NCBI RefSeq assembly: GCF_018873765.1
Contig: NC_057924.1
Location: 5,704,001-5,768,000 of the forward strand
Length of the DNA stretch: 64,000 nucleotides
DNA from: Telopea speciosissima
Taxonomy: Eukaryota > Streptophyta > Magnoliopsida > Proteales > Proteaceae
Reading direction: 5' to 3'
The position numbers were made by a program, and so were the translations under genes. Under the pieces are notes generated by a model. It worked only from the letters and a program-made list of their open reading frames with translations. It did not search any database and was not told the DNA's origin. This document shows positions 20,201-54,518 of the stretch, one piece after another; the stretch's first letter is position 1; each line of letters opens with the position of its first letter.

Positions 20201-23200
20201 CCCCCCAAAATGTAAGAGGGGTCATTCATTTATATCCTTGAGATCCTAATCTCATCCAAGGCAAGGGCTTTTTGTGTCAGTTCTTAAGGGAATGGGTCAA
20301 TCTTAGCTATAGATGGAAGGAAATCACCTCCATGAACTAAAAGAAAGTTTTTATTTGATTCTTGGGATTCTAAAGTCTTCTAGGGCATTCCTAAGGTCTT
20401 AGACTATGTCCAAGTGAGAGCCAAGATCGGCAAAAAGAGATCAAAGTGAATCTCCCGAGGATATGGTTGGCATGTAATGGCCTCTAGTCAACATGTAATG
20501 GACTTTGACCAACATCGACCATCAAGAAAACAACGTCGGGGGTAGCCTAAATTGGTACTGGTCTTGGTCCTTGTGATTGGTCTAGGTTTTTTTTTTCCGC
20601 TAAAAGGATTCATTGAAAGACAAGAAGAAAAAAAGAAGAAAATACATAACATCAAAACCTGGGCATTCCAAGGCAAAAGACTAGAAGAGAAGCAGACCCA
20701 CCTACAGATACGCTATCTGTAGAATCTAAACATGTAAAAGCCAATTAACTATAATTTTGAAAATTCGTTTGCCAAATTTAAACCTCCTATATTAGCATGG
20801 GGACAGAACACTCTCAGATGTAACTAAACAACCCCTCCAGATTTCAGGGGAATTCCAACTAATCATCGTCTAGGCCACTCCAGGCGACAAAATGAGGCAT
20901 CTACTCACAATCATGCCACTTTAGGCACTCTTTGCACTTTGAGATCGTTAGCCTTGTTGGTCTTTCTTATCAAAACAAATTTGGTAAGAAAAAAACTACA
21001 ACATTGCATTAATTCACATGAAAATCTCCGTTTAAGAAAATGTATTCCTTATGTATATTATTTATAAATTCAATAAAAATATTAGGGTTTTAATCACCAC
21101 TTTCACACCCAAGCATATATGCATACACAACTAAATCAATTTTGGTGAACAAAGCAATCTCAAAATTCACTAATCAAATAAAGATTGAACCAATTGGTAT
21201 TATGGCTAGTAAACCGTGCAAAAAATTTGGTTGAGCTTAATTTGAAATTTAAATGATGAGAAGTGGAAGTGTCTATAGAAATACCTGGTACCAGATGCAT
21301 GTCACAATCATCGGAATAAAAATTATTAACATTTGCCATGCAACTTGTGACATCACTGCAATAGTTCCCAAACATCTTATGATTGAAATAAGAAGTTCTT
21401 CGATTTGATGAGGAATAGAGGTATCAAGTGCACTTTGATCTATGGATGCCTGTATAAAAATAGAGTTTATTTAAATTTTTAAATAATAACGTTTATGGTT
21501 ATCAAATAAGATCATTTGGATCCCAAGAGTAATCAAGCATACTTACTAACCCGATTTAAAATCCTTCCACTTGGAGTAGAATCAAAAAATGACATGGGAG
21601 CACGGAAAATACACAAATGCATTTTGTTGAAGAGCAGAGTAGCTGTCTTGTATCCAATAGTTACAATGAGCATAGATCTTATAAGTACACAAATAGAGCA
21701 TCCAAGAGTCAAAGCAACATAAACAAAGATGAGAGTAGATCCTCTAACATGAGGTCTCACATCCCCTGAAATGGGAGTAGCCAACACAATCCAATAACTA
21801 CTGCCTATTAAGAGAAACTGATAAAGAATTTGTGCCAACAATATCAATGGAACAAAAATCCCTTTATATGCAGTGGTAAAATAATACCAATAGACTGAAA
21901 GACTAACCCCACCCTTTTCTCGCTTTTCTTCTTGGACAAGTTGCCCTTCTGGCTCAACCAATTGTTCCATTGTATAGTTTTTGGGTTTTTTTTCTCATCA
22001 TCTTGAATAGAATTCTCTTTACATAATTGAATCATCTAAAGTAACCCCATGTTCGATAGAATTAAGGGTTGATAAAGCTTTCTTATGTGCACCCACTAAT
22101 TCTATAAAGTCGGTTCTTGATCTAAGAATTTCTTCATATTTTCCTGCTTGAGTAATCTTTCCATCTTTCATAACCTACCAAATAAGAGAAGGTAAATAAT
22201 CACTCTCAAACCAAGTTGAAAGGCTTGAAGTCAAGGAAGAAAGATGTCATATTCTCACCAAAATAAGATCAGCAGAAGGTAAAAACTCTACTTGGTGGGT
22301 CACATAAATTACTGTTTTTGAACCTAAGATTCCCAGTAAACACTCCTGTCACAAAAATTAAGATTTTCACATTTAGCAACTCAAAAATAATTTTCAATTA
22401 CTTAAAAGAGCCAAATAGATATGCAAATTAATATAATGTATTGTTCATAACGATAAGTAATATCAAAACCATTATGCAAGAATATTCATCCCTCAATATC
22501 ATATGTTTGTAGGTCATGTTTGTTTAGATAACCATGATTTCACTCTTTTTAGATCAATTTCAATTTTTGGTAAACAAAATTATGATGTAAACAATAAGAT
22601 GTATAACTTCAAGCCAACTTCACCAAGAAAATCTTTGAAAGTAAAACTCAAATAGCAATTACCTTAAATAGATGAGTTGCAGTGTGAGCATCCACGGCAC
22701 TAAAAGGATCATCAAGCAGATAAATATCAGCATCATGGTACAAAGCACGAGCAATCTGGATTCTTTGTTTTTGCCCACCACTCAGGTTGATCCCCCTATC
22801 TCCTATAATAGTTTGGTCCCCGAAGGCATACAATTCTAAGTCCTTATTTAATGAACATGCTTCAAGGATCATCTCATACCTTTCCTTGTCCATCTTCTTA
22901 CCAAACAATATATTGTCTACTATCTTTCCACTCTGTATCCAAGGTGATTGTGCAACATAGGCCTTTGTCCCATTCAACTTGATGGAACCAGATATCTTCG
23001 GTACTTCTCCTAATATGCATGAAAGTAGGCTTGACTTACCTGACCCAACAGAACCACAAATAGCCACTCTCAAACCATGATACACTCGAAAATTAAGATC
23101 TTTTAATGTGAGATTAGGAGAATGAAGGTCCCAAGAAAAATTCCCCTTGACCACCTCAACTGCAACCTCAACATCATCTTTTGGAAGCTTTTGTACTATA

Positions 23201-25047
23201 TTTGGATGAAGATCATCAAGACAGAGGAATGAGGCTATCCTGTCGAGGGAAACTTTAGTTTGAACTATCATAAAGATTGTGTCTGGGAGGTTATAAATGG
23301 ACCCTTTCAATATCTCAAATGTTGCAAGTGCAGATAGAATCTTTCCTGACTCTAGCGGAATTTCCATAAGCACACAAAAACCAAAAGTAACCATGGTTAC
23401 AAACATGGGAGCAGATAAGAAGACAAAGTCAGTCATAGATAACTTATAAAGTAACATTTTTAACCGTCTTGTTTCGAAGGTCCTAATCTCAATTATTGTA
23501 GCCAAGAATTTCATTTCCCAGCCCTGGAGCTTGAGAAACCTCATATTCCTTAGAGCCTCAGATGTCACCGTCATCCTTTGATCCTTTGAATCCATCAAAC
23601 TCCCTTGAAATTTCTCCTGTAGTTTTCCCAGTGGAACATTTGCTAACATCAAAATCAATGTGGTAACAAAAGCTACAAGTGAAGCAAGTCCAAGATTCCT
23701 GTACAAGATCAACAATGCTAGAACAACCTGAATAGGAACCCTCCATACGTCATGTAAGTACCAACTGAAAAGGCCAATCCTCTCGACATCAACACTCATC
23801 AAATTAATGTTCTCCCCACTATTGTAGCCCAACTTTGATTGGCTTGAAAGCCTGAGACTTTTCTTATAGATTATTGCAAACAAGGCAGCACGGATCCTAA
23901 TTCCCATCTTTCGTAATTGAAAAAACAAGTGCCTTTCTGAGAGGCACCTTATAAGCTTCGAAAGAAAGAAAACAAACGCTAATGCATAGCCTTTAGATTT
24001 TAATTGGATAGAACTATTGAGATACTGAACAAATGCATCAATAAGGTATGGTCCAACATAAGAAGCCAATATGCATACAATGGAAAATAGAGATGTCCAT
24101 AGAATTTCTTTCCATGTTGAGAGAATCAATGCCCTTATCAACTTGAGTGTGCTAACCTGACCACTATTACCACCGCCATTACCATCAGATTCAAGTTTAT
24201 TTTTAAAACAAGCAAATACCACTTTGGCACTATCACAATTGGCAAGCTGAGGAACATCTTCGAGGTCTAGTGTTTTTTTGTACCCAAGTGAAAGCAAAGG
24301 GCCCATCCAAGCAAAACTAAAAATACTGAGAAGATTGGCATTTTCATAAGGAGTTATGCTCTCTCCGCTGACACTTGATCCTTGTTTTTCGTCACTATTG
24401 TTTTGATTGGAACTAATTTTTAAAAGAGGATCTGAAAGATAAGAATATTCATCTTCTCGTCCCTTGCCAAACAACCCAACATAACAAAATAACAAACCAG
24501 TAATAATGGATACAACATCGGAGACCCATAGGAGGATTTGTAAAGACAAATGTTTCCAATACAAACCAAGATGTATAACAAGATAGGAACAAGACATTAG
24601 GAGGTAAAAGACCCACCAAATCCTTAATAGAATAGGAAACATGTGCCCCCTTGAATGAGAAAACTGGATATGTAGGTAAGCAGAGATCACAAACCAAGTG
24701 ATCATTTTGAATCCAAAATCCAATTGGGCAACTAACTTTAGATCAGACCAACCATGTCTATATCCAGAGAGGTAGTTTAACATGAATAGGATAAGATGAC
24801 AAAATGATAGACCCATGCAAGATATAAGGGCTGACCAATAGTATAAAAAGTATGCATTTTTCAACATTGGATTTGAATTTTCAAGAGTAGGCATCATGCG
24901 TCTCTTGCAAGCACATGAAATGAATAAAACTGATAACAATATTAGATGTGAAGATGCAGAAAACCCATGCATGAAAATGGTCGTAGAAGACCGTGAAAAG
25001 AATATCCATATATTCATATCATTCTTTGGTTCTTCAAAAGCATCCAT
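17201..25047 (-). CDS. ABC transporter C family (MRP), ABCC3-like, ten exons, disrupted in exon 3
   Basis: ABCC proteins are full-size ATP-driven pumps, often vacuolar, for glutathione conjugates and other organic anions. Exons (minus strand): 22663-25047, 22259-22345, 21551-22174, 21285-21449, 19168-19462, 18847-19055, 18449-18754, 17886-17949, 17425-17664, 17201-17301; all have GT/AG borders and compatible phases. Net length is about 1491 codons, normal for ABCC3-like proteins. The order is TMD0, TMD1, NBD1 (Walker [10 protein letters not shown] about residue 665, LSGGQKQR, Walker [13 protein letters not shown]), TMD2 and NBD2 (GRTGSGKST about 1283, [19 protein letters not shown]-loop IAHRL). 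In exon 3 the reading frame meets TAA at 22019-22021 and two TGA codons soon after. The original frame is open again from 21970, and the interval is open in a +1 frame. The lesion sits in the poorly conserved linker after NBD1. It may be a recent null allele or a sequence error; everything else looks intact. Confidence 0.9.
19463..21284. other. Long intron 4 of the ABCC gene, with LINE-like 3' tail remnant
   Basis: At about 1.8 kb this is the largest intron of the gene. Around 20567-20700 a T-run is followed by CCGCTAAAAGGATTCATTGA and A/G-rich sequence. This resembles the antisense 3' end of an L1-type LINE, similar in style to the insertion at 52907-53103. The rest is AT-rich. Confidence 0.4.
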
Positions 25048-26091
25048 GTTTGCAATTTCTCTTTTCTTCTGTTTGCAGTTTGATGAAGTAGTTTAGAAGT
25101 CAACAATCCTATTAGCTTTATCACATTTTGAATTGATGCAGACCCATTTGCATAATCGTTGTGGAAACTCTAGCATCTAAATACCAACCATTTGCACCTT
25201 ATATGTTGGCAGGAAGACTTAGACCAATAATGAAGTCTCAATATGAACCTTAGGTGGTTAAACCTGTTAATGAACAGACAAAACAAAAATTGTTTACAAT
25301 ATATAAAAAACAAGAGAATTGGTAAAATTCACATAGAACAATCAAGAATGGAAGATGCTACAATTATAAATAATTCAGTTCATGTTCAAATGAGAACATC
25401 AATAAAGAGAGTACAAATTTAGTAAAATGAATAGAAATAAGTCAATATATTTTTAGAAATAATATATTGGAGCATAACGTAGCGTCCCCAAATCCGTGTA
25501 AGGTATAGTGAAATTTTTTCTTTTTCTTTTCCTTTCACCTGTAAATGCGGAATCTATACATATATTTCAAATAATAACAGCGACATTAGAATTCAACAAT
25601 GGATTTACAAAATATTTCCATTCACTTCATAACCTGCTAAAATTTAACATTCCCATAAACATTTGAAAATCTACTGACATGAATCATCTTATGCAATATC
25701 CATTAATATCATCGGTAAACCTACTGGTATCAACCATCTCATCATAACATCCATCTAACATTGTAACTATGCATTCACATAAACGTTCATCAATCTTGTA
25801 CATTCTAAAATCTGAAATCCATGATAATGTATCAACACGGCTGTTCAAAACTAAAAGTCCATCAACATCTATCAAATAAATCCTAACAACCTGTATCTGT
25901 GACTTTACATCAATCATCTAACCATCAAAGTACATCCCAATGTTTATGTACAACAAAATTTATTTCTATAAACTATCTCTGTAAATCTAAATCATCTACT
26001 AGGAAGGCTGGACACCTTTTCCCTGAAATCCATTTGAAACCCAAAAATTTTACGTAGTACTTGCTGAGGCCTCTAAGGCACTCAACCACAA

Positions 26092-27989: not shown

Positions 27990-28330
27990 ACTCGGGTTTC
28001 GACCTAGCCGAAACTGAGATTTGGTCGATTTGGTCGAAATCATCCGAAACCAGATCGAAACCTGGTACTTTTTTATATTCATGGGAAAACCTTAATTGGA
28101 AGGGTTTCTGTCCAAAGTCGAAACCAAGTCGAGATATGCCTTTCTCGGTCGAGATGAGGTATTATATAGGCTTGGTTCAAAGGTGGTTCAATCGAAACTA
28201 TCGAAACATGGTCGAAACCATTGATACCGATCCAAAAACATGCATAAAAATACACCTCTATCTCATCTTGAAAACCTGTGAAACTGAGTTATCTTGGTGT
28301 TTTCGACAGGTTTCGAGCAAGTTCTTCTTC
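27990..28330. repeat. GTTTCGAC-rich palindromic repeat, unclassified
   Basis: The motif TCGAAAC and its complement GTTTCGA recur many times (GGGTTTCGACCTAGCC, CCGAAACCAGATCGAAACC, TCGACAGGTTTCGAGCAAG). It looks like a diverged fold-back transposable element fragment. Ends are not clear. Confidence 0.4.
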
Positions 28331-28654
28331 CATGTGCATGATATATTTTTGGTAAACAATCCTAATACATGATAACTACCTAAATCTACGAACCATATTA
28401 ATCCCAGGATGGGCTCCACATTCATGGTTTACATCCCATCCATTAATGTTTGGGTTTGGGGCCTGGGCTGGTTGGGCCTCAACAAGCTACTAGCTTGGGA
28501 TCCTATTGTGCCAGTTCTTGCTTATATTTTGAAGGATCTGTGTCTGCCATCAATCATCTTTTCAAGATCTGTATATACGGACATAGGGTGTTTGGGTTGA
28601 GCCTTGATCATTAGTTTTGCTGTGACAAAATTGGTCCCCTTGAGTGTGGGATTT

Positions 28655-28885
28655 GCAACTTATGTGGACAGACTCAAAATTAAATCAATGAATCAATGTT
28701 GACCAATCATAAATAAAGAAGGTGATTCAAAGAATGGTGTTTTAGAGACAGTTAAAATATGATCGATGAAGTCGAGAGGTGTAGTGTTGTGTAATCGACT
28801 AATTCCTCTTAAGCTTAAAAAGAAATTCTATAGGACAGCCATACGATTGGCTACGATGTATGGGGAGTAAAGACTCTTCCATTTT
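28655..28885 (+). mobile_element. RTE-like LINE fragment, reverse transcriptase C-terminal part
   Basis: Peptides such as IINKEGDSKNGV and IPLKLKKKFYRTAIRLATMYG correspond to the end of plant LINE reverse transcriptase. It is closely related to the fragments at 46390-47300 and 49010-49640. It is truncated at both ends and non-functional. Confidence 0.7.
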
Positions 28886-31237
28886 TCTCGCCTCAGTAGG
28901 GCCCAGGCCCATGTTTTGTTTCAGTTGAGGGGAAAATGGTTTGTGTGTGGGAGCATTGAGCATGCATCCCAAATACGGGAGAGGGTGAAATGACCTCCCT
29001 GCACCCATGAAATGCGAGATGACCACCCTTGTTGATGCTTCTACGTGTGCTCTCATTGGCTCCTCGCACGCATAGGTCCACATGCCCCCCCCACAAAAAA
29101 ACACTTCCCCATTTTTGTTTGATGGATATATGTTTGATTTTTTTTCCCCATCCTTTTACTCGCTCTATAATAAACTTGAGAGCAGTCTGATGTGTTTGTG
29201 GGGCCCAAGTTCGGTAAAGACCCATGACATGAATAGTTCAAGATATCGGTATCCCTGATACCCGTTACCAATACGTTGGGGTGTCAAAATGTGACCGAAC
29301 CAGTGAAATCCGATCGAACTGAACAAAGACGTATTGAATATATATATACATTACAAATCGAACCTGATATCAACGATAAGAGAATCAAAATCGAACTGAA
29401 ATTGAATCTTTCCTTAATACTTTGGTTTTGGATTCAACTATTCTCTCATCTAAAACTGGTGAAACCGGACCAAAACCAAACCGAACGATTAATACCCCCT
29501 ACCAATACAATACCCATTACTGTAGCAGTGGAATCGGTACAGGAAAAGGTAAAATGGTCCCAAAAAAAAATCAAGGTAGAAGTATTTTGAGGTACAAAAC
29601 GGTCCAATCTGATCTGATACAGCCAATCTGTATTAGTATTGGCTGAGATCAATACAGGCACCGATACCGATACCAATACTGATACCTACGACCTTGATTA
29701 AATGTTCTCATGTTTTGTTGCAGAATTAGCACAATTATATCTTCCCAGGAGTGTGAAACTGCCCATAAAACGAAACTGGTCCAGGCCCATCTATATTAGC
29801 GTAAGCACAGAGTGATCCAGGCCAATCTGGGCTGGCCCAAGAAGCTCATTAATACCATTAGATGAGTTCTCTCATGCTTCAGTGTGACCTACAGACATTG
29901 ACTCTTAAAACAGAGTATTGTGTGTACACCTCTGTTGCAATCCGTGAGAAAGAGGCGTAGGGGAATGCATCAATGAGTCGCAATAAAACAGTATCATATA
30001 TATGAGGACAGTGATGTCATTTTATGTGAGGAGGAGAGAAAAAGGCCCAGAGGTGCCCGGCTTGGCAACTTAGAGAACCTTTTATTTTTTTTTTTCATCA
30101 AAAAAATAAAAAAAGGAGAAAAGACATCCTTATTTAAGCTCTTACATTGTTTAAAATAAATAATGATGACGAACCGGGCCCAGCCCAGGGGTGGGCAGGA
30201 TCAGAGATGGATGGACCGGTCTGGCCAGCTTAATTTATCGGTGCTTAGCAGCTTTCAGAGTATCTTTGACATGTTCCCACTACTGCTACTGATTTCCTCT
30301 TTGTTTTCTCTAAGTCTTCAACTCAGTAATTACTTCCCATGTCTTCCCATACGTCCAAGCGTTTCATAGCTTTCTCCACTTGAGAATTCAATTCACATAT
30401 CCCAAATACATAAATGTGACCCCGAAAACTTATCATGTAATGAGATTAATTACATCTTGGGCAAGAAATCGTTGCTTGGTGGTGTAGCCCCTGTACCAGT
30501 ATGGGGGCTAATAAGAGCCGGCGTAAGAGCATCAACACGGATGAGATTTTTTTATTTCAGAAGGATATGGGAGGTAATTTTGCGTGCTCTTGTGTTTTGA
30601 CGCAAGAACCATGCAACTAAACAACATTCTTTTTCCCTTAAATCGCTTTCCTATGAAAAATAAGCAAGAAAGAATGTTTTGTCAGGCTGTGTGGGAGAAG
30701 GTTTTTTATGCCGCTAATGTGTGGGGGTATTGGGGGAACCTCCTATGCTACACCAATTGGAGTGTGGGAATCAATATTTTGTCAATGGGAACCCAAATGG
30801 TCAGGAATGAGAGAGAGTGTCAAAGATATGATAGGGTGTGGGAAAGCATCCCCACAGTGATAGCTTGGGGATCTTTTTCTACTCTTTTTTAGGCTTGTTG
30901 AGGTTTTAGGTTTCTTCATGTGATGGTTAAACTTCGGGGGGAAAAGAAGCCCACGATGGCAGAGTGCAGATTCCATCATATGCCTTCTCACATAATGAGC
31001 TTTGAGATTCACACTTGACATTTTGTCTCATATTTCGACTTATGTGGGACCCATATGAATGATTCCCTTCTCCACATTACTACTGATGTGGTGTGCAGAT
31101 TCCTTTCAACGCTAGCATCATGGAAGTACCCTCTTCCTTCAATTACAGTTCTATTTGGCTCTTGTTTCCTTATCAGGTGGAAACAATGCCCCAAGCTCAA
31201 TTGTCACTATTTTTGAAGTACGGGAAAATGCTGGGCA

Positions 31238-31467
31238 CCATGGTTTGTGATCTCGGTATCGGCTAGATCAGACTGGATTGGGATCGGATCGACCGATACG
31301 GATTGGGATCGCCCAAACTCAGGCAAATATGACACTTCTGTCCATGTTTTCTTATGAAAAAAAGTAATTTTTTTACATTTTTACCCATGTTCGTACAGCT
31401 GGATCGGATCGGTATCGGGATTGGTCTTGATGGATACTGATCCGATACGATACCTCAAACCATGCTG
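31238..31467. repeat. F8 palindromic repeat (ACCATGGTTTGTGATC arms)
   Basis: The left end CACCATGGTTTGTGATCTCG pairs with the right GATACCTCAAACCATGCTGG. The interior is rich in GGATCGGATCG / CCGATACG. It is present in copy C but I did not see it at the matching place in copies A and B, so it probably inserted after the duplication. Confidence 0.6.
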
Positions 31468-32170
31468 GGCACACCGTTGGTATACTACAAGCTAGTGCCT
31501 GTCATGTCTATCTCTCTCTTACCCCACCCCCCTTTTTAAATGACTCTCATGCCCCTCTTGTATGAGGCCCCGTCTCATAGCTCCATTGGTGCCACCTGCT
31601 AACTTACCGCATACGACAGTGTGTCTATCCGTCTTCGTTAAAGTATTCATTACTTGGTTTTCCTACCTTTATTTCTTGGGCACCAACTTTTCTCTCTTTT
31701 TATCCCAAAAAAAAAATTAGGTCTCTTCCTTTGACAAAAAAAATGTTAGTTGGTTTTTTGCTTTGATTTTAGTTCCATTACGATCTCAAGCCATCAGTCT
31801 TGTCTACAATTGTCCGTTTTCTCTTTGTATATCTTTTTATTTATCTGCAAATCCTCTTGTTACTATCCTTGTCACATGCGGAAACTAAATTCATATCAAT
31901 CTTTCCCTATCACATGTGACTAGAGATAGCCAACCTTGGAGAATTTGTTTCCTTGTTGGTCTCTTTCTATTGGTGCTATATTTATAGCCCAATATCTGGT
32001 ATTCTAATTAGCTCTCACCTTGTCTTTTAATTCTTTCCATGTTTTACCTTAGATCCATTTTTTGGATTGAGAATTTGAGGAGGATATGGAACCAAATGTG
32101 TGATGAAGAGATTAGGATCTCCATTGAATAACTAAATAAGACCTTAAAATAAAATTAATGGCTTAATTAC

Positions 32171-32257
32171 CTCTTTATTCCAGTCAGTCCGATATGTAAT
32201 CCACAATAAAATAAGTGTCTGCATTGCTGTACCACCTATCATCCCTGACCATATGCC
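32171..32257 (-). pseudogene. Orphan MATE exon 6 (copy C, left arm of inverted repeat)
   Basis: This 87-nt exon with intact AG and GT borders encodes [20 protein letters not shown] followed by TYRTDWNKE, the same as in MATE A and MATE B. No upstream MATE exons exist in this copy, so it cannot make a transporter. Confidence 0.9.
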
Positions 32258-33064
32258 CTATAAATTAAGCCACAGACATCAATTAATTAATTATAATCCA
32301 CTTCTCAATGTCAATATAACCCAATCTATTTGTTCTTTGATTCTTAAAGTAGCTACAAAGTCACATAAACTATTATGATCCACTACACACAAACAAAAAA
32401 TAAAGTCAATTTTGATTAGAAATGCTCATTCCTATAGAATCCAATTAAATTCACTTTGGACTCTCGACAAATAGAAGTGAAAAAACAAAATAGAACCAAT
32501 ACTATTCTTCAATTACTTTCTTCAGGCACATGGGAGCGGGGACCACCCCGGGCAGTGTGATTCTTTCCACAAGTGCGGCACAGAAAACACCTATTCTTTT
32601 AATTGGCTGTTGTAATGGGGAATTCTGAATCAGGTAAGTACCCCATAAGGAGCACCACCTGATTCAGAAACTTCCCCCATGAACAAAGACAGCCAAACAA
32701 GTTAAAAGAAAGTAGGGAGAATGTCAGGGCGGGGGTGGCATTGCGCCCACTCCCAGTGGCCCCCAGTGCACTGCGCTACGGCACGGAGAACAGCTGCCCA
32801 AGAAAGTAATTGAAGAATAGTATTGATTCTATTTTGTTTTTTCACTTCTATTTGTCGAGAGTCCAAAGTGAATTTAATTGGATTCTATAGGAATGAGCAT
32901 TTCTAATCAAAATTGACTTTATTTTTTGTTTGTGTGTAGTGGATCATAATAGTTTATGTGACTTTGTAGCTACTTTAAGAATCAAAGAACAAATAGATTG
33001 GGTTATATTGACATTGAGAAGTGGATTATAATTAATTAATTGATGTCTGTGGCTTAATTTATAG

Positions 33065-33151
33065 GGCATATGGTCAGGGATGATAGGTGGTACAGCAATG
33101 CAGACACTTATTTTATTGTGGATTACATATCGGACTGACTGGAACAAAGAG
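33065..33151 (+). pseudogene. Orphan MATE exon 6 (inverted copy, right arm)
   Basis: This is the mirror image of the exon at 32171-32257, on the plus strand, with the same length and intact splice borders. It has no accompanying MATE exons in this orientation. Confidence 0.9.
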
Positions 33152-36100
33152 GTAATTAAGCCATTAATTTTATTTTTAAGGTCTTATTTAGTTACTCAAT
33201 GGAGATCCTAATCTCTTCATCACACATTTGCTTCCATATCCTCCTCAAATTCTCAATCCAAAAAATGGACCTAAGGTAAAACATGGAAAGAATTAAAAGA
33301 CAAGGTGAGAGCTAATTAGATTACCAGAGATTGGGCTATAAATATAGCACCAATAGAAAGAGACCAACAAGGAAACAAATTCTCCAAGGTTGGCTATCTC
33401 TAGTCACATGTGATAGGGAAAGATTGATATGAATTTAGTTTCCGCATGTGACAAGGATAGTAACAAGAGGATTTGCAGATAAATAAAAAGATATACAAAG
33501 AGAAAACGGACAAGAGTAGACAAGACTGATGCTTGAGCTCGTAATGGAACTAAAAGTCATAGCAACAAACCAACTAACATGGGGTAATGACACTTACCCC
33601 ATGTGACAATATCACTAATTTCAAATCGTTTCATGTTTGGTTATTAAATTCCACTTTACTTTGTATTCAATTCCATTTGTTTTAAAATGTAAAATAAATA
33701 TTACATGTAAAATATATCATTACTATATATTGTAAGAAATTTAAGTAATTTATACAATGACATGGGGTAATGATTACAAAAATTTATTTTTAAAGAATTG
33801 GGGGTGGAGAATTCTCTCTCTCCCTCTCTCTCCTTCATATCAATATGGCCCAACCCCTGTTTTATTTTAGTTCTTTATTTTTATTTGAAGAAAATGGTTT
33901 TTGTGGGGGAGCATGGCAACTGCACCTAGGCATCGGAGAGCATAAATGACTACCATGCCCCCCATGAAATGCGAAATGACTGCCCCTATTGAATGCTTAC
34001 CGATTCACTCTCATTGGCCCTATATGCACACAAGAGCCATGCTCTCCCACAGAAAACACTTCCCCCTTTATTTGATGGATAAATGTTTGATTCCCACCAC
34101 CCATTTACTCGCTCTATAATAAACTCGAGTACAAGTTCGGTAAAAACCCATGAAATGCTGGTTCCAGGTATCGATATTGTTGGTATGTGATACCAATATA
34201 TAGGGGTGTCAAAATGTGATCGAACTGGTGAAAGCATATCAAACCGATCCAAAGCATAATGGATTGGTTTTGGATTGTGGTATTGTGAAACTGGTTGAAA
34301 ATTGGACCACATTGAAATTGAACTGAATATGGCGGACCAAAATTGAATCCAAACGATACCACCCAGAAAATCATTAAAAAAATATGTGTTTTTCCCATAT
34401 ATACATATATGGATTGCAAACCAAATCCGATATCATACCGATAAGAGAATAAAAAAAAAACAAGATACAAATCGAACCAAAAGTGAATCTTCCCTTAATA
34501 GTTTGGTTTTGGATTCACCCATTCTCTTAAAAAAAAAAATAGTGAAACTAGACCATAATCAAACCGATCAATTGACACCCCCAACCAATACGATACCTGA
34601 TACTCTATACCAGTGGTATCGGTGCATGGAAGGGTAAAATTGTCCAAAAAAAACAAGATAGTGGTAATTTGAGGGACAAAACGGTCTGATCTAATCTGAG
34701 GGCAGTGAGGTCATTTCAGGGGACGATAAGAGAAACAGGTATAGAACTGCTAGCTTATCCTGCCCCAGCGGCTCAGAGAAAATTTTCACATATTCAATAT
34801 TGACTTATATTCTTCCTTCTCAAATTGTACAAATACTTCATCCTTATTTAAGCTCTTACATTGTTTAAAAAAATTAATGATGTACGAACCGGGGCCAGTG
34901 CCTAAAGAAGGCTGGACCAGAGATAGATGGACCGGTCTAGCCAGCGATGTCGGTGCTTAGTAGCTTTGAGAGTATCTTTGACATGCTTCCAGTGCTGCTA
35001 CTAATTTCCTCTCAATGTTTTCTCAAAGTCTTTCAACTCAGTAATTACTTCGGGGGCGTTTCTGCCTTGTCTTCCCATACGTCCAAGCGTTTCATAGTTT
35101 TCTCCACCTGAGAATTCAATTTATATATCTCAAATACATAAATGTAAATTACATCATTAATTACATCCCGGGCAAGAGATTGGAAAAAATTTTGCTTCTT
35201 GCTGCAAGGCTGGCAACCAAGGAAATGGAATAATTCAGTTCCCTTATGGGTTCATAAATACCCTCCTAGGTTTTAGTATTTTCTAAAATACCTTTTAATA
35301 TCTCATTTTCTTGGCTGCCAGCCATGTAGCAGGAACATTCCTGTTACAAATGTAGCAACAAAATTTCATCCCAAGAGATTGATGCTTGGTAGTGTAGCCG
35401 CTGCACCAACATGGGGGTCAATAAGAGTGGGTATAGGAGCATCAGCACAGATAAGATTTCTTTTTTTTTAATTTCAGAAGGGTGTGGGCAGAAATGTCAC
35501 ACAACTAAGCAATATTCTTTTTCCCCTTAAATCTCATTCCTATGAAAAATGAGGGAGAAATAATGTTGTCAAGCAGTGTGGGAGAGGGTTTTGATGCCGC
35601 CAGCGTATGAGGGTTGTTGAAGGGGATAATCTCCCACGCTACATCAATTGGAAAGCTCGAATCAATATTTTTTCAATCGGGACCCATATGGTTCAGGGAT
35701 GCGAGAGAGTGTTAAGATGTGAGAGGGTGTGGGAAAGCAACACCTTGGGGAACTTTTTCTACTGTTGTTTTTTAGGCTTCTTGAAGTTTTAGGTTTATAC
35801 ATGTTATAGCTAGACTTCCAGGGAAAAAGAAGCCCATCATGCCATAGTGCATATTCCATCATATGCACTCTCACATAATGAGCTGTGAGATCCACATTGA
35901 CACTTTCTCTCATGTTCCAACCTATGTGGAACCCATGTGAATGATACTATTCTCCACATCGTCATTGATGTAGCGTGCAGATTCCTCCCAACATTGGTAT
36001 CATGGGGGAACTCTCTTCCTTCAATTACTCTTTTACTTGGCTCTTGTTTCCTTAGCAGATGGAAACAATTGCCGTAAACCCAACTGTCATTCTTTTTAAA

Positions 36101-36884
36101 GTGTGGGCCGAGAAAAGGCTGGGCACACCGCTGGTATACCACAAGTCCATTTGAAATGATTCCCCTACCCCTCCAGTATGATGCCCTATCTCGCCCCCCC
36201 CCCCCCCATTAGTGCTGCCTGCTAACTAACCGCACACTTGCCTGTCCCTCTCCCTTTAAAGTATTTAAGATTCAGTATTCCTACCTTCATTTCTCGGTGA
36301 CCAATCGAATTTTTATCCTCTCAGATTTTCTGCCCGGTAAAGTTGTCTGGTGCCTCTAATAAGAGTGGGGTGAACCCCACCAGATAGTGTATTCAAGCAG
36401 GGAGTTAGATCATCATTTTCACCCTTCTATGAGAGGAACCGGACAAAGAACCTAAGAGGATAAAGATCGGTGACCAACCTAAATCTTTTATCTCTTTGCC
36501 AATGAAGATTGTCTTTTTCAATGAAAATAAATTAAAGCATAGCAAGAATGGTGGTTTGTTGCTTTGACTATTAGTTCCATTCCGAGCTTAATCAGCAGTC
36601 TTGTCTACACTTGTCCTTTTTCTCTAGAATAGCTCTTTGCAACAATTCATTGATAGCAACAGGTCCAGAGATATAAAGCTATGCCAACTTAGATCGACAC
36701 TGATGTGTCTCACCTTGTCTTTTAATTCTTTCCATGTTTTTCCTTAGATCCATTTTTTGGATTGAGAATTTGAGGAAGATATGGAACCAAATTGTGTGAA
36801 GGGAGTGATTGTGTGATAAAGAGATTAGGATCTCAATTGAGTAACTAAGTAAGACCTTAAAAATAAAATTAATGGCTTAATTAC

Positions 36885-39800
36885 CTCTTTGTTCCAATCA
36901 GTCCGATATGTTATCCACAATAAAATAAGTGTCTGCATTGCTGTACCACCTATCATCCCTGACCATATGCCCTATAAAGTCATAGACATCAATTAATTAA
37001 TTTTAATCCACTTCTTAATATCAATATAACCCAATCTATTTGTTCTTTGATTCTTAAAGTAGCTACAAAGTCATATCAACTATATATGATCCACTACACA
37101 AACAAAAAAGAAAAAAAGAAGCCAAATTTTGATTAGAACTTCTCATCCCTATAGAACCCAGTAAAGTCTATCAATAATGAGCCCATCATCATTGACAAAT
37201 AAAGGTGAGATAGGGAGAATGTTCTCTGTGCCGCAGTGCAGGCTGCACCCAGGCGCATGGGCCTGCCACTCAGGGGGGCAGGGTGGTCATTGCGCCCACC
37301 CTCATGTGCCTTGCCGCAGTGCAGGCTGCACCCAGGCGCATGGGCCTGCCACTTAGGGGGGGCAGGGTGGTCATTGCACCCACCCTCATGTGCCTAGGCG
37401 CAATCTACGTTGCGGCATAGAGAACAACACCCTTAAAGGTGAAAAAACAAAATAGAACCAAGACTTTGTCATGGGGGAAGTTTTTGAATCAGGTGGTGCT
37501 CCTTATGGGGTACTTATTTATTGATTTCACCAGTATACTCAATTAAGTGTACTGGCCGACTTGTGGAAATCTATTCATGTTTGATAGGAAACACTCAATT
37601 TCATATATTTGGAATGCATAAAAAAGGGAGAGATTTCAGAAAAAATAAAAAAAAATCTTGCTTATGTTATCATATCCTACACTTATGAGATTGAAATTTT
37701 GTGCAGAGGTGAACCCATTGGTCTCATGCTTACATGTTAATTTTCAGTCCAACTGGAGATGAGCAAGTGGCAAAATAAAACTTTCAGAGGTCTAAGAATA
37801 CCAAGTGGGGGCATGGCAATAAATGGGAGAGTACATATATGATTGAATTTAAATATAGAACTTGGCAAGTGGTAAATCCAAACCAGTCTCTAGATATTAA
37901 ATGATTATAATTGTTATATAATCAATCCACATGGCCGAAGGAGGTGGGTCACCCGTAGATACTCTGTGGATGGAAATGTCCATAGAATCTTTTGCCAAAA
38001 ATTACGATTTTTTCTCAATTTTTTTCACCGCAATTGACAAGAAACTTTCTCCTTAAGAAAGGAGGAGGGCTGGGGAAAATGTCTCAATCTAAACTATGTA
38101 AAAGATGGCGATAAATGATTATATATACAAGAAAATAAAGGGTTTTATGAATAAACAATATAGAGGAGCGCACCATTAATGTGAGATGGAATCGTTTCAT
38201 ACATAGACGGACAATAAAATCATTTTATATAAAGTGAGAAATTGACCGCTCAAAGAACCTTTTCTGATATGATCATGAAAGGTTGAAAAAAGAACCTTTT
38301 TTACCATATGATCATGAAAGGTTGAAAAAGCAAAATGGTGGAGAATGTAAAAATTGTAATACCTTGGCACCAAAATCGAACTTAAAACCCAGAAGAGCCC
38401 CAAGTGGAATCCCAACCACATAATAGCATCCCACATTAATATACGCCACAAGTGTCTGCCATCCACACCCAACAGCCACACCTTTATTCACATGAACAGT
38501 GCAACACTAGAATAAGTTAAAAATTTAGAGAGAGAGAGAGAGAGAGAGAGTTTTCAAATATGTTTGATCTTGTTGCATGGCAATATCCCGTGAGAGAGTG
38601 ACTAAAGTAAGCTTGTAAGTTAGGTGCCAGACGCGTGCATTGCATGTATGCAACTAATGAATATAAATTGGTGACCAGTAGAAGAAGCAAGAAGATGGAT
38701 CTGCCTCTCCTCTAGCAATGGCAGGAGTTGGAGGATCCAATTAATCCAACAAAAACAGGGGAGTTTTGATCATTTGATAGAGGGATCCGCCTGTGAAATG
38801 GAACTTGGCTCTTCTTCAATCGTGGTGGGAGTTGGAGGATCTAGCCCAGCATAAATAGGGGTTTTTTTTAATTATTTTAAAGGGAGTCATGCCATGGTTT
38901 TAATGCACGGTATCGGAATGATTATTGGCAACATGAAAAATTGATATGATACTGATATGCTATCGGCCTAGATCGGCTATATCGGAAAAAATTATCCTTT
39001 GATTCCTTTCAAAAATGAGTTTTCGGACCATTTTACCCTTTGTCTGTACCATGCTACCGATATGGTATCAGCACGATATCGGTATCGATGACTAGCAAAA
39101 TTGGTGCGTATCGCCCATATCAAACGATACGATACCGATACTTCGAATCATGGGTCCGCCTATGAAATAATCCAAACACCCCTATTTTTGCTGGACTGAT
39201 ACTTCAACTCCCACCATTAAGATAGATATGTAGGTAGATAGATAGATAGAGAATGCAAGTAAGTGAGGACGTACCGGAGAGTACGGGTTGAACACCGTTG
39301 AGGACAAGAGTGACTGCGAGGAGAGGGCAGAGTTCAGAAACAGCGTTGGCAACGGTCTCACCGCTAGTGAAAGCATAGCTGAGGACATGACGCAACGACA
39401 TCACCACCGTGGCCAGTATGGCTGATATTAGCAACGACACCCCTGTCACCATCACTACTGCGAATGCTGCTGATTTTGGGTGTCCTGCTTCAAGCTCATT
39501 GCTCACCCTCACACTGTTTTTCCATTATATCACTATCATTAATATCATCATGATCACCACCATTTTAGCTTAAACCACTTTCACTCTCACTCACTCAAAT
39601 GTTTGTCTTTATTTCATAAACTTTTTTTTTTTTTTTGCAAGTCAAGGACCGATAAATCATCAGGGTCAGGGAAAAATGGATTAAGTACACCGATCAAATT
39701 CCTGACATTGTTCTCCCAAGGGAGCAACAAACCACCAGGGCAAGACCTGGAATGCATTTCATGACTCTTTAAATATCATCGGATCCGCTCTATAGATTGG

Positions 39801-41875
39801 ATTGGGAAAAAAGTCTTTTGGATCTTGTGCAATAAGTGTGGGACTTGTGGGAGTCAATGATTAACTCCAAAGTCCATCACATATTTTCATGCACAAATTT
39901 ATTTATCAATCAAGCAGGGGGATCGTTGTGAGGCTGTGTGGCCCCTGCACCAGCACAAGACCATCCACATTTCATGAGAGTATGGCGGTCATTTCACCTT
40001 TTTTTGCATCTGACGCCATGCAGCCTCACAATCTTCTTTTTTTCTTAAAAGGGGAGGATGGATTGCTCATTTCATGAGAGTATGGCGGTCATTTCACCTT
40101 TTTTTGCATCTGACGCCATGCAGCCTCACAATCTTCTTTTTTTTCTCAAAAGGGGAGGATGGATTGCTGCCGGACTGCATGACCTTTGGACCAATGCGAG
40201 GCCAATGAGAGTGCACGTAGGGGTGGGGCGGTCATTCACTGTTCTAAGCTTTAAAACGACTTTGCTCTTACTATCTATTACTATTCGGTACCCAAAAAAA
40301 TAATTACCTTGCAGCTGCGTTGAATCCAACAGAAGCCATGAACGCACAACCATTGATTGTCATGCTGCACATCAGAACAAACTTTTGAGATTATGTATGG
40401 CCCACGGAAAAAGCATTAATCAATGGTGCAAATTAATAGACAAGTACCAGACAGCAAGAGAATCCAAAGCCAATTCAGGGTTCTTGAGCAAACCAGCAAT
40501 CAAAACAAGTATCTGAAAATACCAAGCTTCCAAGCAAAGCATCACCGCCGACGAAGCTGATAATTTCAAGAATTCCGGCAACCCAGAGAAAGCTTTGAAG
40601 GTGAACCCAGTCCATGTATGCTTACACTTACCACTCATCACTACGTAACAGAACTTGCCCACCGCAATGATCCACCATGACAAGCTTAACACCAAAGAAG
40701 CACCAAGAAGACCCAATCCAAGCTTGAAAATCACTAACCAAGTCATTAAGAGATGAAGTGCAAGTGTAGCTGTTGATATGTAAGCACTAGGTGCAACGAT
40801 GCTCTGTGCTTGCAGGAATTTCTGGATAGGGAAGTTGGCAGCGTATGCAAATATCTGGGGGATCAATCCATACACGTACACTGCAGCAGCAGAAGCAATG
40901 GTGGAGGATTCACCCAGTAAGAGTAATATGGGCTTCGAGAATGTATAGATCACCATGAGTGGAATCCCAGTTGCCATGAGTAGAACAGTTGATCTCTGCA
41001 TATAGATCCCCAGCATTTCGTACTTGCCTGCTCCATAAGCTTGTCCACACAGTGTCTCAACCGCACTACCCATGCCCAGCTGCTCACATAGTTCATCAAT
41101 ATTTCTTAAGAATTTGGGTAGAATTCATCCTCAAAAACTAGCCGTTAAAGTTAAAAGAAATCAAATCCTTTCCAATGACATTTGATCATCAAAGTCAATC
41201 TCCCACCATCCATGGGGTATGGGGATGGACTCTGGTGGTTAAATGTCATTGGAGAGGATCCGGGCTTGCTCTTCAAGATATTTGGCTCTCCTCTAGCCAT
41301 GGCCAGAGTTGGAGGGTTCAGTCCTGCAAAAACACCCAAAAACAAGGGTGGTTTTGGTCATTTCACAGCTGAACTAGACCCCCTTTAGCTCCCGCTACGA
41401 CTAGAGGAGAGCCGGATCCCCCTTAAAGCACCTATAAGTTTTCACATGGGGCTACTCAATATTAATTAGGAAGAAATAAGGGTAGGGGATAGAATACCAG
41501 GAGGCCATAGGTGAAGATTTGGATGCCGCTGTTGCCGAGGGAACAGGCGGCGTACTCGAGGTTACCGAGGTGACCAGAGAAGATCTGGGAGGACATGGAC
41601 ATGGAGTAGTTGATCATGTACATGACAACAGAAGGGGCTGCAAGATTGAAGAGCATCTTGAGTTCAATCAAGGAAGCTAATTGGAAACGTTTGAACGGTG
41701 ATAAGCTTTCGTCTGAGAGTACAGCTTCGAGTTGGTGGTTGGCTTGGTGATAGTTTGGTGATAGTTGTTTTTCTTGAAGGAGAGGTCGATGAAGAAGAAG
41801 AAGGTTCTCTTCTTCTTCTTCTTGGAGTGGTGGTGGTGGTGGTGATGAGGACTCCATGATTTGATGCTGTTGCAA
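36885..41875 (-). CDS. MATE efflux transporter, DETOXIFICATION 40-like (copy A)
   Basis: MATE proteins export or sequester organic compounds by proton or sodium antiport. Exons (minus strand): 41498-41875, 40448-41079, 40308-40364, 39275-39513, 38363-38481, 36885-36971; all borders are AG/GT and phases join correctly, giving 504 codons. The N-terminus is Pro/Glu-rich and cytosolic. Family motifs include [92 protein letters not shown] and YRTDWNKE, which match the DTX39/40 group. A first ATG at 41875 and a second at 41857 are both possible; I took the first. In this family a short final exon (about 20 residues) follows KE. I could not identify it, and reading past the donor at 36884 would add 19 residues ([12 protein letters not shown]...) before a stop. 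The rest looks intact. Confidence 0.92.
37213..37430. repeat. F1 fold-back MITE with internally doubled arm (MATE A intron 5)
   Basis: The segment GCAGTGCAGGCTGCACCCAG followed by GCGCATGGGCCTGCC and the CAGGGTGGTCATTGC centre occurs twice in a row. A single-unit F1 copy sits at the same place in copy B (53607-53722), so the insertion predates the A/B duplication and the doubling happened later in A. Confidence 0.8.
38893..39154. repeat. F8 palindromic repeat in MATE A intron 4
   Basis: The left end CATGGTTTTAATGCACGG is answered by ACGATACCGATACTTCGAAT and CATGG-type sequence at the right. It is absent from the matching intron of MATE B, so it came after the duplication. Confidence 0.55.
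39968..40167. repeat. 100-bp tandem duplication in MATE A intron 3
   Basis: The unit beginning CATTTCATGAGAGTATGGCG starts at 39968 and again at 40068, an exact 100-bp period. The two units are nearly identical. The matching intron of MATE B has a different, larger array (56815-57590). Confidence 0.92.
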
Positions 41876-42109
41876 ACAGGTGGGAGATGCATGGCAGGGG
41901 GTAGCAGGCTGGCGGCTTTTAAAGGAGAAGGAAGGCCTGGTTCTCAGTGAGAGCCACTAGATTGAGTGGACCACTAGACCGATGATGATTCGTCGTTCCA
42001 GGATGGTTGCTATAGTGGGGCCCATCAGAAAAGGTGTGGGCCCGTTTTCTCTATCTCAAATGATTTTTTGTTTTTTTGTCGGTCATAAAAAAAACAATTA
42101 TCTCAAATG

Positions 42110-42272
42110 CAATTTGGATAAGCTGTCCCGCAGAACCGTGCTGACCGCCTTACCCCTATCTAAGACACAATAAGGCGGGGAATGATCGCCTTATCCCTGC
42201 CCAAGCAGGGGTAAAGCGATCATTCCTAGTCTCGCTGTTTCTCAGCAGTACGGTCTGCTAGGCAGCTCGGCC
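42110..42272. repeat. F2 fold-back MITE, 163 bp (copy A only)
   Basis: It starts CAATTTGGATAAGCTGTCC and ends GCAGCTCGGCC, flanked by CTCAAATG at 42102-42109 and 42273-42280. It is absent from the matching place in copy B (about 59275), so it inserted after the duplication. Confidence 0.75.
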
Positions 42273-42701
42273 CTCAAATGATGAATCTATACAAAATAGT
42301 GATATGATACTATAGATATAGAAGATTCTCTTCAAATTGGCAGCATTGAAAGAATGCAGATTAGATCCGTGGATTCCATGCGGATGGTGTGGGGGTCCCA
42401 AGGTCGGAATTCGTACGAGGACTTGATCCGAGCTCGCATTGAAAACCCTCTCCATTATTTTGTAGGAAAAAAAGAGTTCGGTTCTTTTGCACGAATCAAC
42501 AGGTGAACGTACATGCGAGAGTCAACCATCTACTCTATTTTTGCCATTTGCAAGGGGAGGAAGGGTTTTTAAGGAAACAAAATTAGAATGCGATTGGCTT
42601 TGAGATGTACGTACACCTGTTGGTACGTGCAGATGATCCTAGCTGGGAAAAAATTGCTTTTTTTTTTTTATATGAGCCCATATATACAGTAAACAATGGG
42701 G

Positions 42702-42835
42702 CGTTGTTCTCTGTGTCGTAGCTCAACCTATGCCTAGGCACATGGGGGTGGGCGCAATGACCACCCTGCCCCCCTGCACAGGCTGCCCATGTGTTTGGGC
42801 GCAGGCTACGCTGCGGCACAAAGAACATTCTCCCA
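42702..42835. repeat. F1 fold-back MITE (GC-rich), upstream of MATE A
   Basis: The arms GTTCTCTGTGTCGTAGC and GCGGCACAAAGAACATTCTC flank the centre CAATGACCACCCTGCCCCCC. The same insertion is at 59537-59677 upstream of MATE B, so it predates the duplication. Confidence 0.78.
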
Positions 42836-43189
42836 AAAAAGTATTGAAACCAAATAAGAACTTGAATCACGAGTTCAGAATATGATCTTGGAGTTTTTTA
42901 GGGCAGAATCATGATTAACAGAATTCTATTTAATCCAAGCAAATCAGATCTCGAATAAGTATGAAATCAGAAACACAGGATAGAAGGAAGTTCAGAAACT
43001 TGCTGATTCAATAGAGAGAGAGAAAAGAGGAGTGATAAGCAAGAATCCCACCTAATTTGTAGGCGGTGAATGTTTGTTACTGAGTGAATGTATATGCTCA
43101 TATTTTTTGTTTATAGAGCGGCCATATTAAACACGTATTGTATAATCGTCATACGAGTTTTATTATGCTGGATTTTGTAAAAATATTAT

Positions 43190-44434
43190 GGGTAAATTAC
43201 ACGACACCCTCTGAAAATCGAACGACACTCAATTCACCTCCTGATTTTTTGAAATACTCAACCGGCCCCCTCCACAGTAACGGTGTTAACTTAAATCAAA
43301 CAAAAAAGTGAAATGACGTATTTACCTTTTCGATTTAAACAAATGAAATCACTTTTATTTTTGGGTGCTTTCTTCTCCTCTTCCATCTCTGCCCATACCT
43401 CTCTCTTCCATCTTCTTCTTCCACCCATCCCTCCACTACCCCGAAGAGCTGCGGAATCATCCATATCGCAAATACCCCAGCTGCCATCGAGATCTCAGCC
43501 GATTGCCCTATCAGCCTCAAGAATCGCTCCTCGAAAATGTACAGAAAGGTCAGGACGATGGCCGTTGTATTCAAGATCACCAAAATCTCTGCATATAGAT
43601 CCCCAACATATCCAGCTGCCAAGCTCCGAATTTCAGTTAATGAGGAAGACAATATCTAGAAGTCAGACTTGCAAAGCAGGCACCTTCTTCACCAAACCAT
43701 CGATTTGTCTTCGCCCAAAACTTTGTAGCCAACCCTGTTGCATCTGCAACCCATGCAAGATCCTGTTACGTGCATTGTTGCTTCCTTACATTTTAGCTTA
43801 GTCGAGAAATACGTTTCATAAGGATCAAGAGATTTCTCACGCTGAAAAATAACAGCTGCAAAGGTGAGAAAATCTGAGTCCGGCAGTTGCAGCGGTGACA
43901 AAGGCGACTAATCCTCTCAAAGACACAGAGTACAGTGATGGAAGAGAAAGAGAACAAAGGGATATAGTTTGGTGCCCAAAACGAAGGTCGTTTTGTGAAG
44001 GTCGAAAGATTTCAGTGGCAAGAGAATAAACATTTGCAGCGACAAAATTGGATTTGCAGAGACACGTTTCGTGTTGAGTTCATGTTTAACGGAAAAAATA
44101 AATTTCCTTCAGATTTGAAGAAGAGGGTTGTGCAATGGTGGTTTGTTTAAGAAGAAGGGTGAAGATGGAGATGGAGTTGCGGGTCATGTGAGGAAGATGA
44201 TCGATTTGGGGGGTTTTAGATTTAAGGGTAAAAAAGTAACTCTACACTAGTCAAGGGTAGTTTAGGGATTTAAATTTATTTAACTAATTGGCATCATCAC
44301 TTAACAGCATAAAACTGGCGGTAGGGACTAATTTGTCATATTAGGGTCTAACCCAGGGATGATTTGAGTATTTTCAAACATCAAGGGGTGATTTGAGTTT
44401 CGTATGAAAATTAGGGGTGACGTGTAATTTACCC
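43190..44434. mobile_element. Mutator-like element 1 (non-autonomous), carrying a MATE gene fragment
   Basis: The ends are inverted repeats: GGGTAAATTACACG at the left and CGTGTAATTTACCC at the right, with similarity continuing for about 80 bp. The flanks AAATATTAT (43181-43189) and AAATAATAT (44435-44443) match at 8 of 9 bases, as for a 9-bp Mutator target duplication. The uninterrupted site is seen in copy B near 60086-60098. There is no transposase. Inside, the minus strand at about 43440-43580 encodes VILNTTAIVLTFLYIFEERF followed by LRLIGQSAEISMAAG and FAIWMIPQLF, a MATE fragment. This is therefore a Pack-MULE-type element. Confidence 0.82.
43335..43652 (-). pseudogene. Captured MATE fragment inside Mutator-like element 1
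   Basis: About 60 residues match the MATE region following the CGQAYGA motif (LYIF..FLRLIGQSAEIS.AAG.FAIWMIPQLF). The wording FAIWMIPQLF differs from the [14 protein letters not shown] of the neighbouring MATE A and B, so the fragment came from another MATE subfamily and not from the host locus. It is an open reading frame of 105 codons but not a working transporter. Confidence 0.7.
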
Positions 44435-52600: not shown

Positions 52601-52890
52601 CCCCCACCCATTCCCTCCATTTGAAATGACTCCCCTACCCCTCCAGAGGATAATGATCCTTGACCAACCTAAATCTTTGAACTCTTTGCCAATGAAGAAT
52701 GTCTTTTTCAATGAAAATGAAATAAAGCTTAGGAAGAATGGTAGTTTGTTGCTTTGACTATTAGTTCCATTCCGAGCTTAATCATCAGTCTTGTCTACAC
52801 TTGTCATGTTTCTCTATAATAGCTCTTTTCAACAATTCATTGATACCAATAGGTCCAGAGATATAAACCTATGCCAACTTAGATCGACAC

Positions 52891-53119
52891 TGATGTGTCT
52901 CACCTTTTTTGTATTTTAATAAAAAAATTTATTGAGGATTAAAAAGGAGGCAAACAAACCTAAAGACAAACTAAAGGCAAAGAAAGCTAAAGCTTAAACA
53001 GGAGACTCAGTCCTAAAACATATTGACAATAAGGTTACCGAGGATCTGTGAGGCGCACCGAGGGGATCCTTATCCTATTTTATTGTTGGGAGATCTCAGC
53101 ATATGATGTGTCTCACCTT
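52891..53119 (-). mobile_element. LINE 3' fragment with 16-bp target-site duplication (copy B only)
   Basis: TGATGTGTCTCACCTT occurs at 52891-52906 and again at 53104-53119, flanking about 197 bp that begins with a T-rich run (a poly-A tail on the minus strand). Copy A has one copy of this 16-mer at about 36700, the empty site. The element is 5'-truncated with no coding part left. Long duplications plus a poly-A tail are typical of LINE-machinery insertions. Confidence 0.88.
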
Positions 53120-53285
53120 ATCTTTTAATTATTTCCATGTTTTTCATCCATTTTTTGGATTGAGAATTTGAGGAGGACATGGAACCAAATTGTGTGGAGA
53201 AGGGAGTCATTGTGTGATAAAGAGATTAGGATCTCAATTGAGTAACTAAGTAAGACCTTAAAAATAAAATTAATGGCTTAATTAC

Positions 53286-54466: not shown

Positions 54467-54518
<52 letters not shown>

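Follow-up and report, generated by a model that had tools for sequence, protein, structure and literature searches.

Organization of the MATE gene array

The window is the whole 64,000-nucleotide stretch of Telopea speciosissima DNA that was analysed (C9:5704001-5768000, from an assembly of 823 Mb in 1287 contigs). It contains two intact MATE genes, called MATE A and MATE B here, the remains of a third tandem copy, MATE C, and a long inverted repeat in which each arm holds one MATE exon. The features are as follows.

28390-31742, minus strand: remaining part of MATE C, with intron 6, a damaged exon 7 and the 3′ flank
31743-32522, minus strand: left arm of the inverted repeat, resident MATE C sequence (part of intron 6, exon 6 and part of intron 5)
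32171-32257, minus strand: exon 6 in the left arm (MATE C), 87 nt, one synonymous change relative to MATE B
32523-32635: inner left arm, a MITE-like deletion derivative and a shortened stretch with CTGAATCAGGT at its end
32636-32656: probable fold-back loop at the axis, 21 nt, matching intron 5 of MATE A and B and running on into the right arm
32657-32799: inner right arm, with more of the ancestral intron 5 left and another deletion derivative of the MITE-like element, unlike that on the left
32800-33580, plus strand: right arm, duplicating the left arm (part of MATE C) in inverted orientation
33065-33151, plus strand: exon 6 in the right arm, inverted copy, 87 of 87 nt identical to MATE B exon 6
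33581-33593: junction of the right arm with the MATE A 3′ flank, 13 extra nt
35045-41857, minus strand: MATE A, 7 exons, 518 aa, intact
41498-41857, 40448-41079, 40308-40364 and 39275-39513, minus strand: exons 1, 2, 3 and 4 of the MATE A model
38363-38481, 36885-36971 and 35045-35107, minus strand: exons 5, 6 and 7 of the MATE A model
51439-59087, minus strand: MATE B, 7 exons, 516 aa, intact
58734-59087 (exon 1) to 51439-51501 (exon 7), minus strand: limits of the MATE B exon model

An earlier reading made from the sequence only had recognized two intact MATE genes here, and both can now be given complete seven-exon models, with GT and AG present at all six introns of MATE A and likewise of MATE B. 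Both genes lie on the minus strand, a correction to that reading; a plus-strand orientation is ruled out by translation of the exons. Each of the two proteins has two stretches that match Pfam MatE, and the solved structure nearest to MATE A is 7dqk, Protein DETOXIFICATION (E 1.7e-225). The two proteins share 484 of 518 aligned positions, and their dN/dS is 0.32.

The left arm of the inverted repeat is collinear with MATE A and B and has the same orientation. MATE C retains exon 6 and a damaged exon 7 (start at 30379), in which the acceptor CAG has become CAA and a net 13 bp have been lost near the end, and a protein search of the window with MATE A and B (E up to 0.01) found none of its exons 1-5. 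Thus MATE C is a 5′-truncated remnant, and the earlier suggestion that the structure arose from a broken tandem duplicate is supported by this third collinear copy. Noncoding distances are 0.18 between C and A, 0.17 between C and B, and 0.083 between A and B; a MITE-like insert flanked by AAAGGTG is common to A and B and, as judged by eye, absent from both arms, and the arms have in common sequence that is unique to C. These three observations indicate that C branched first. The first 39 nt of MATE C exon 7 show one difference from A and one from B, and this near-intact start, together with a right-arm exon 6 unchanged relative to B, suggests that MATE C was a kept gene until recently. We also note that C intron 5 (32258-32480) is 0.088-0.089 distant from A and B and the C 3′ flank 0.17-0.18, hinting at past gene conversion of C with A or B near exon 6, so that retention of exon 6 could reflect conversion from B and not selection.

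Structure of the inverted repeat

Self-BLAST of the window aligns 31743-32522 with 33580-32800 (minus strand) at 98.1% identity over 782 columns, a length of match that is far beyond chance, and a repeat search returned the same pair of arms as two pieces of 377 and 363 nt that are 99% and 98% complementary. The 780-bp inverted repeat of the sequence-only reading is therefore real as a feature of this sequence, with exact coordinates, and the MATE exon reported on each arm is indeed the 87-nt exon 6, with an AG acceptor and a GT donor present in both. Four inverted pairs of at least 80 columns with arms less than 5 kb apart occur in the window, this one included; the other three are a match of one arm to MATE A (457 columns) and pairs of 82 and 95 columns.

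The arms are 277 bp apart, as had been described, but the true axis of symmetry is the 21-nt loop, so the palindrome spans most of this spacer in the form of eroded inner arm. The roles of the arms also needed correction, with the left arm resident and the right arm its inverted duplicate. On the plus strand the axis reads CTGAATCAGGT (32625-32635), the loop, and ACCTGATTCAG (32657-32667). The loop sequence occurs once, and in MATE A and B it runs straight on from the sequence of the right arm; inner right arm and loop together match MATE B over 80 columns at 95% in BLAST, with 68 of 72 positions kept when aligned. From the MITE-like element to the loop, 41 of 44 aligned positions are the same in both inner arms, and the alignment has 12 gap columns, in five runs. 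Each inner arm appears from the alignments to carry, at one site, its own deletion derivative resembling the element of A and B, that of the inner left arm lying at about 32525-32591 as read by eye. Long palindromes with short spacers are reported to be unstable (PMC7999016), and the erosion of the center would fit with such instability.

The fold-back join also happens to create, at 32631-32639 on the plus strand, a consensus-like 5′ splice site (CAG|GTAAGT), which with the acceptor of the right-arm exon 6 would bound a 431-nt intron.

Origin of the inverted repeat

Homology between the flanks of MATE A and MATE B starts in BLAST at 33594/49997, beside the end of the right arm at 33580, whereas homology between C and B continues to 28390/48896, which indicates that the MATE A flank has been cut at this point. 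The junction and its neighbors form the palindrome ACATGGGGTAA-TGACAC-TTACCCCATGT (33577-33604), and the break coincides with one end of an element. The opposite end of this element, 33760-33784, matches 49983-50007 of B in reverse complement at 23 of 25 positions. The element is AT-rich and has terminal inverted repeats, with its ends at 33577-33604 and 33760-33784; B retains the left end at 49983-50007.

We consider it probable that the structure is a young fold-back inverted duplication in MATE C, most likely a scar of repair that has no selected role. A break in MATE C intron 5 would have been repaired by a template switch onto the opposite strand, leaving the 21-nt loop; about 0.9 kb of MATE C would then have been synthesized backwards before the new end was attached to the MATE A 3′ flank. 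To judge from the breakpoints, C exons 1-5, the DNA between C and A and the outer flank of A would have been lost in the process, and a single event of this kind accounts at once for why C is truncated, why an inverted copy exists and why A flank is missing. The signature of fold-back duplications is a single-copy spacer together with an adjacent deletion (PMC3907307). Here the 21-nt loop is homologous to A and B and directly adjoins the right arm, and next to the inverted copy no C exons 1-5 were found and A-B homology ends at 33594, where C-B homology continues. The human fold-back inverted duplications described in that report share both features, the single-copy spacer lying at the axis and the deletion adjoining the inverted copy, but they are megabases in size, against about 0.9 kb here, and their loops measure 766-70,466 bp, against 21 nt. 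Their junctions have microhomologies of at least 2 nt (PMC3907307); at the present loop junction the microhomology is 1 nt by eye, no more than expected by chance, with the ancestral C sequence beyond the break inferred from MATE A and B and the axis partly eroded.

Divergence and age of the arms

The 782 columns of the arm alignment contain 12 substitutions and three one-base indels. With A and B as references, 10 of the 12 substitutions could be polarized, five being derived on the left arm and five on the right, and all three indels fall on the left arm; columns 31994 and 32002 were excluded, and column 32496 was polarized by hand from BLAST and the B sequence since MAFFT misaligned the sequences near the MITE-like insert. 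The Jukes-Cantor (JC) distance between the arms is 0.0156, about a fifth of that between A and B and far less than that between C and A, so the fold-back event was late.

The differences are clustered. None occurs in the 318 columns 32178-32495, which comprise most of exon 6 and intron 5, and seven lie in the outermost 78 columns. In permutation tests the gap has a P value of 0.0057 with all 15 differences and 0.023 with the 12 substitutions only; for dispersion the values are 0.0008 and 0.012, respectively. Gene conversion from arm to arm is one reading of this clustering and small numbers are another; if later conversion is responsible, the event is older than 0.0156 implies. Observed/expected CpG is 0.26 and 0.25 in the arms and 0.17 and 0.29 in the counterparts in A and B, respectively. 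The arms thus fall between the two genes, and this sequence-based footprint of methylation gives no signal.

Could the hairpin silence MATE A and MATE B?

It had been proposed that hairpin RNA from the arms acts in trans on MATE A and B, as a "self-silencing or dosage-control device", a description that goes beyond the evidence, although the sequence relations behind it are supported. The arms of the broken duplicate would form a near-perfect hairpin (98.1% arm identity), and the inner repeat on the minus strand, 32100-33220 (1121 nt), is predicted by RNA folding to form one long hairpin of -840 kcal/mol. Exon 6 of MATE A and B does match the arms, with many perfect stretches of 21-24 nt: perfect 21-mer matches to the hairpin number 41 of 1537 in the coding sequence of MATE A and 71 of 1531 in that of MATE B, the counts before splicing being 137 of 6793 and 151 of 7629, and perfect 22- and 24-mers to the arms are likewise present in both coding sequences. 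The locus therefore combines, like silencing loci of the LGC1, CHS and Tpd1 type, a long complementary inverted repeat with a short loop and siRNA-length identity to a gene, in this case to both MATE A and MATE B.

A transcript could also be supplied. The right arm begins 1465 nt past the MATE A stop (35045) in the direction of transcription, so read-through from MATE A is the simplest source, and in tobacco cells even promoterless inverted repeats are reported to silence in trans by way of read-through (PMC6196474). A working trans-silencer, in which read-through from MATE A or a nearby promoter makes the hairpin and siRNAs of 21-24 nt arise from exon 6 and the shared introns, nevertheless seems unlikely to us, and we are similarly doubtful of its presumed outcome, by analogy with rice LGC1 and soybean CHS, that MATE A and B mRNA would be lowered or exon 6 methylated. 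The coding matches lie in exon 6 or reach at most a few nt past its ends; the directly targetable part of the mRNA is this 87-nt exon only, out of about 1550 coding nt. Five AATAAA hexamers lie on the transcribed strand between the MATE A stop and the right arm, so normal termination may come first. This limited coverage speaks mildly against a trans-silencer, and so does the lack of a C-to-T excess among the arm substitutions (C-to-T or G-to-A changes make up three of the 10 that were polarized). For the inverted-pseudogene hairpin described from rice the parent gene gave no small RNAs (PMC2708354). If polymerase did read through from MATE A, the resulting hairpin RNA, with its stem of ~780 bp, could be cut by Dicer-like enzymes; its small RNAs would mainly mark the arms themselves, and MATE A and B would be affected weakly at most.

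More elaborate is a feedback on the fidelity of termination, in which MATE A transcripts that overrun by ~1.5 kb on over-expression or under stress enter the exon-6 hairpin and yield siRNAs against A and B. We regard this as very improbable, and as hardly more credible its corollary that arm-to-arm gene conversion kept the exon-6 core fit (0 differences in 318 columns).

Should small RNAs arise from the arms, the locus would capture a recent, natural case in which a tandem transporter family gave rise to a hairpin derived from one of its genes. Its breakpoints, loop and target could all be read from the sequence, and the passage from inverted duplication to regulator could be followed. Should none arise, it is a clear fold-back scar that breaks a plant gene and a caution against inferring silencing from inverted repeats alone.

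Other explanations of the structure

Near-identical inverted arms are a known class of artefact, and sequencing errors could account for the three one-base indels, which all fall on the left arm. It is very unlikely, all the same, that a fold-back chimeric read or collapsed haplotypes produced the repeat: derived substitutions occur on each arm (five and five), the deletion derivative of the MITE-like element appears to differ between the arms, and the right arm joins unique MATE A flank sequence. Such independent changes on both arms are not what a copied read would be expected to contain.

An origin of the arms as two distinct truncated MATE copies, or as a fragment captured by a transposon, and not from one fold-back, is a thought prompted by the instability of the array, which includes a fourth unit without a MATE coding match (L034, below), and by a 6-bp direct repeat, TGACAA, near but not at the outer ends (31732 and 33604). 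This is highly improbable, given that the symmetry reaches the axis, that the loop is contiguous with one arm, and that no direct repeat longer than 6 bp, as a target-site duplication around the whole repeat, was found near the outer ends.

Usual miRNA foldbacks are far shorter than these arms, which at 780 bp and 98% identity do not make a short foldback, and an Rfam scan of 28000-44000 gave nothing at gathering score; both speak against a young miRNA gene forming by the inverted-duplication model, which we find scarcely plausible. The locus agrees with that model in carrying a fragment of a target gene duplicated in inverted orientation at high identity, and an origin of miRNA genes from pseudogenes or inverted duplications is reported in rice and Arabidopsis (PMC3237417).

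Comparison with known inverted repeats

On the preferred fold-back reading, the locus is a clean and recent case of a type of structure already known. Rice Low glutelin content1 (LGC1), from the work of Kusaba in 2003, has reportedly been shown to be transcribed and silencing. It resembles the present case in that a deletion in a tandem family left an inverted repeat beside members of the family, with a hairpin RNA possibly made by read-through; it differs in that the arms here are mostly intron with one exon and are known from sequence alone. The inverted PAI copies of Arabidopsis are whole genes with known methylation. The two cases share a duplicated gene copied in inverted orientation, with the potential to direct methylation to its relatives, and differ in size, the copy here being a 0.8-kb fragment.

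Natural inverted repeats with an effect do exist (PMC3608071, PMC11390486, PMC6139297). The soybean chalcone synthase repeats are, as here, an inverted repeat of a gene segment beside intact homologues (PMC3608071), and the maize Tpd1 hairpin (PMC11390486) and the snapdragon inverted duplication (PMC6139297) are similar as a hairpin and in structure, respectively, with small RNAs that act in both cases on a gene elsewhere. A survey of rice reports two inverted pseudogene pairs with hairpin small RNAs; these are adjacent opposite-strand fragments of one parent, like the arms described here (PMC2708354). The definition used there includes paralogous pseudogene pieces on opposite strands within 2 kb, a stem of >100 bp and a loop of <2 kb, all of which are present at this locus, and a density of same-strand small RNAs >0.04. 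The rice pairs were thus chosen by small-RNA density (PMC2708354), the soybean repeats correlate with silencing that is lost with the structure (PMC3608071), and function in maize and snapdragon is backed by genetics or populations (PMC11390486, PMC6139297), whereas the present comparison is one of sequence likeness only.

Other loci, amounting to 78,180 bases, contain five self-palindromes of 107-187 columns and none of at least 200, a weak substitute for a genome base rate; this set by choice omits 11 loci that overlap the array and includes the overlapping L008 and L013 as well as L032, which lies inside the window. Among 55 exon-6-like places in the genome, taken from the best candidates scored, the pair in the window is the only opposite-strand pair within 2 kb. 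A literature search for a MATE transporter inverted repeat with siRNA found no such locus, judged by title and start of abstract, and one for Telopea small RNA found nothing relevant, judged by title.

Neighboring elements and gene remnants

The MITE-like element is GC-rich and lies between AAAGGTG copies at 37206-37435 in MATE A, where it is partly doubled, and at 53603-53728 in MATE B. It is repetitive, with at least 49 genome matches (best 40 of 1752 candidates scored). A fourth unit of the array, at 575-3089 of L034 (C9:5783000-5792999), consists of MATE 3′ flank followed by sequence of the type found upstream of A and B; a protein search found no MATE coding match in it, and it looks as if it were an array member from which the gene had been deleted. 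Just upstream of MATE A, at 43443-43630 (minus strand), lies an older remnant resembling MATE exon 2 in two pieces, with 41% identity to residues 152-197 of MATE A and 67% to residues 135-149. On the other side of the array, 22651-25092 (minus strand) is an open frame of 814 residues that by eye resembles part of an ABCC-type transporter.
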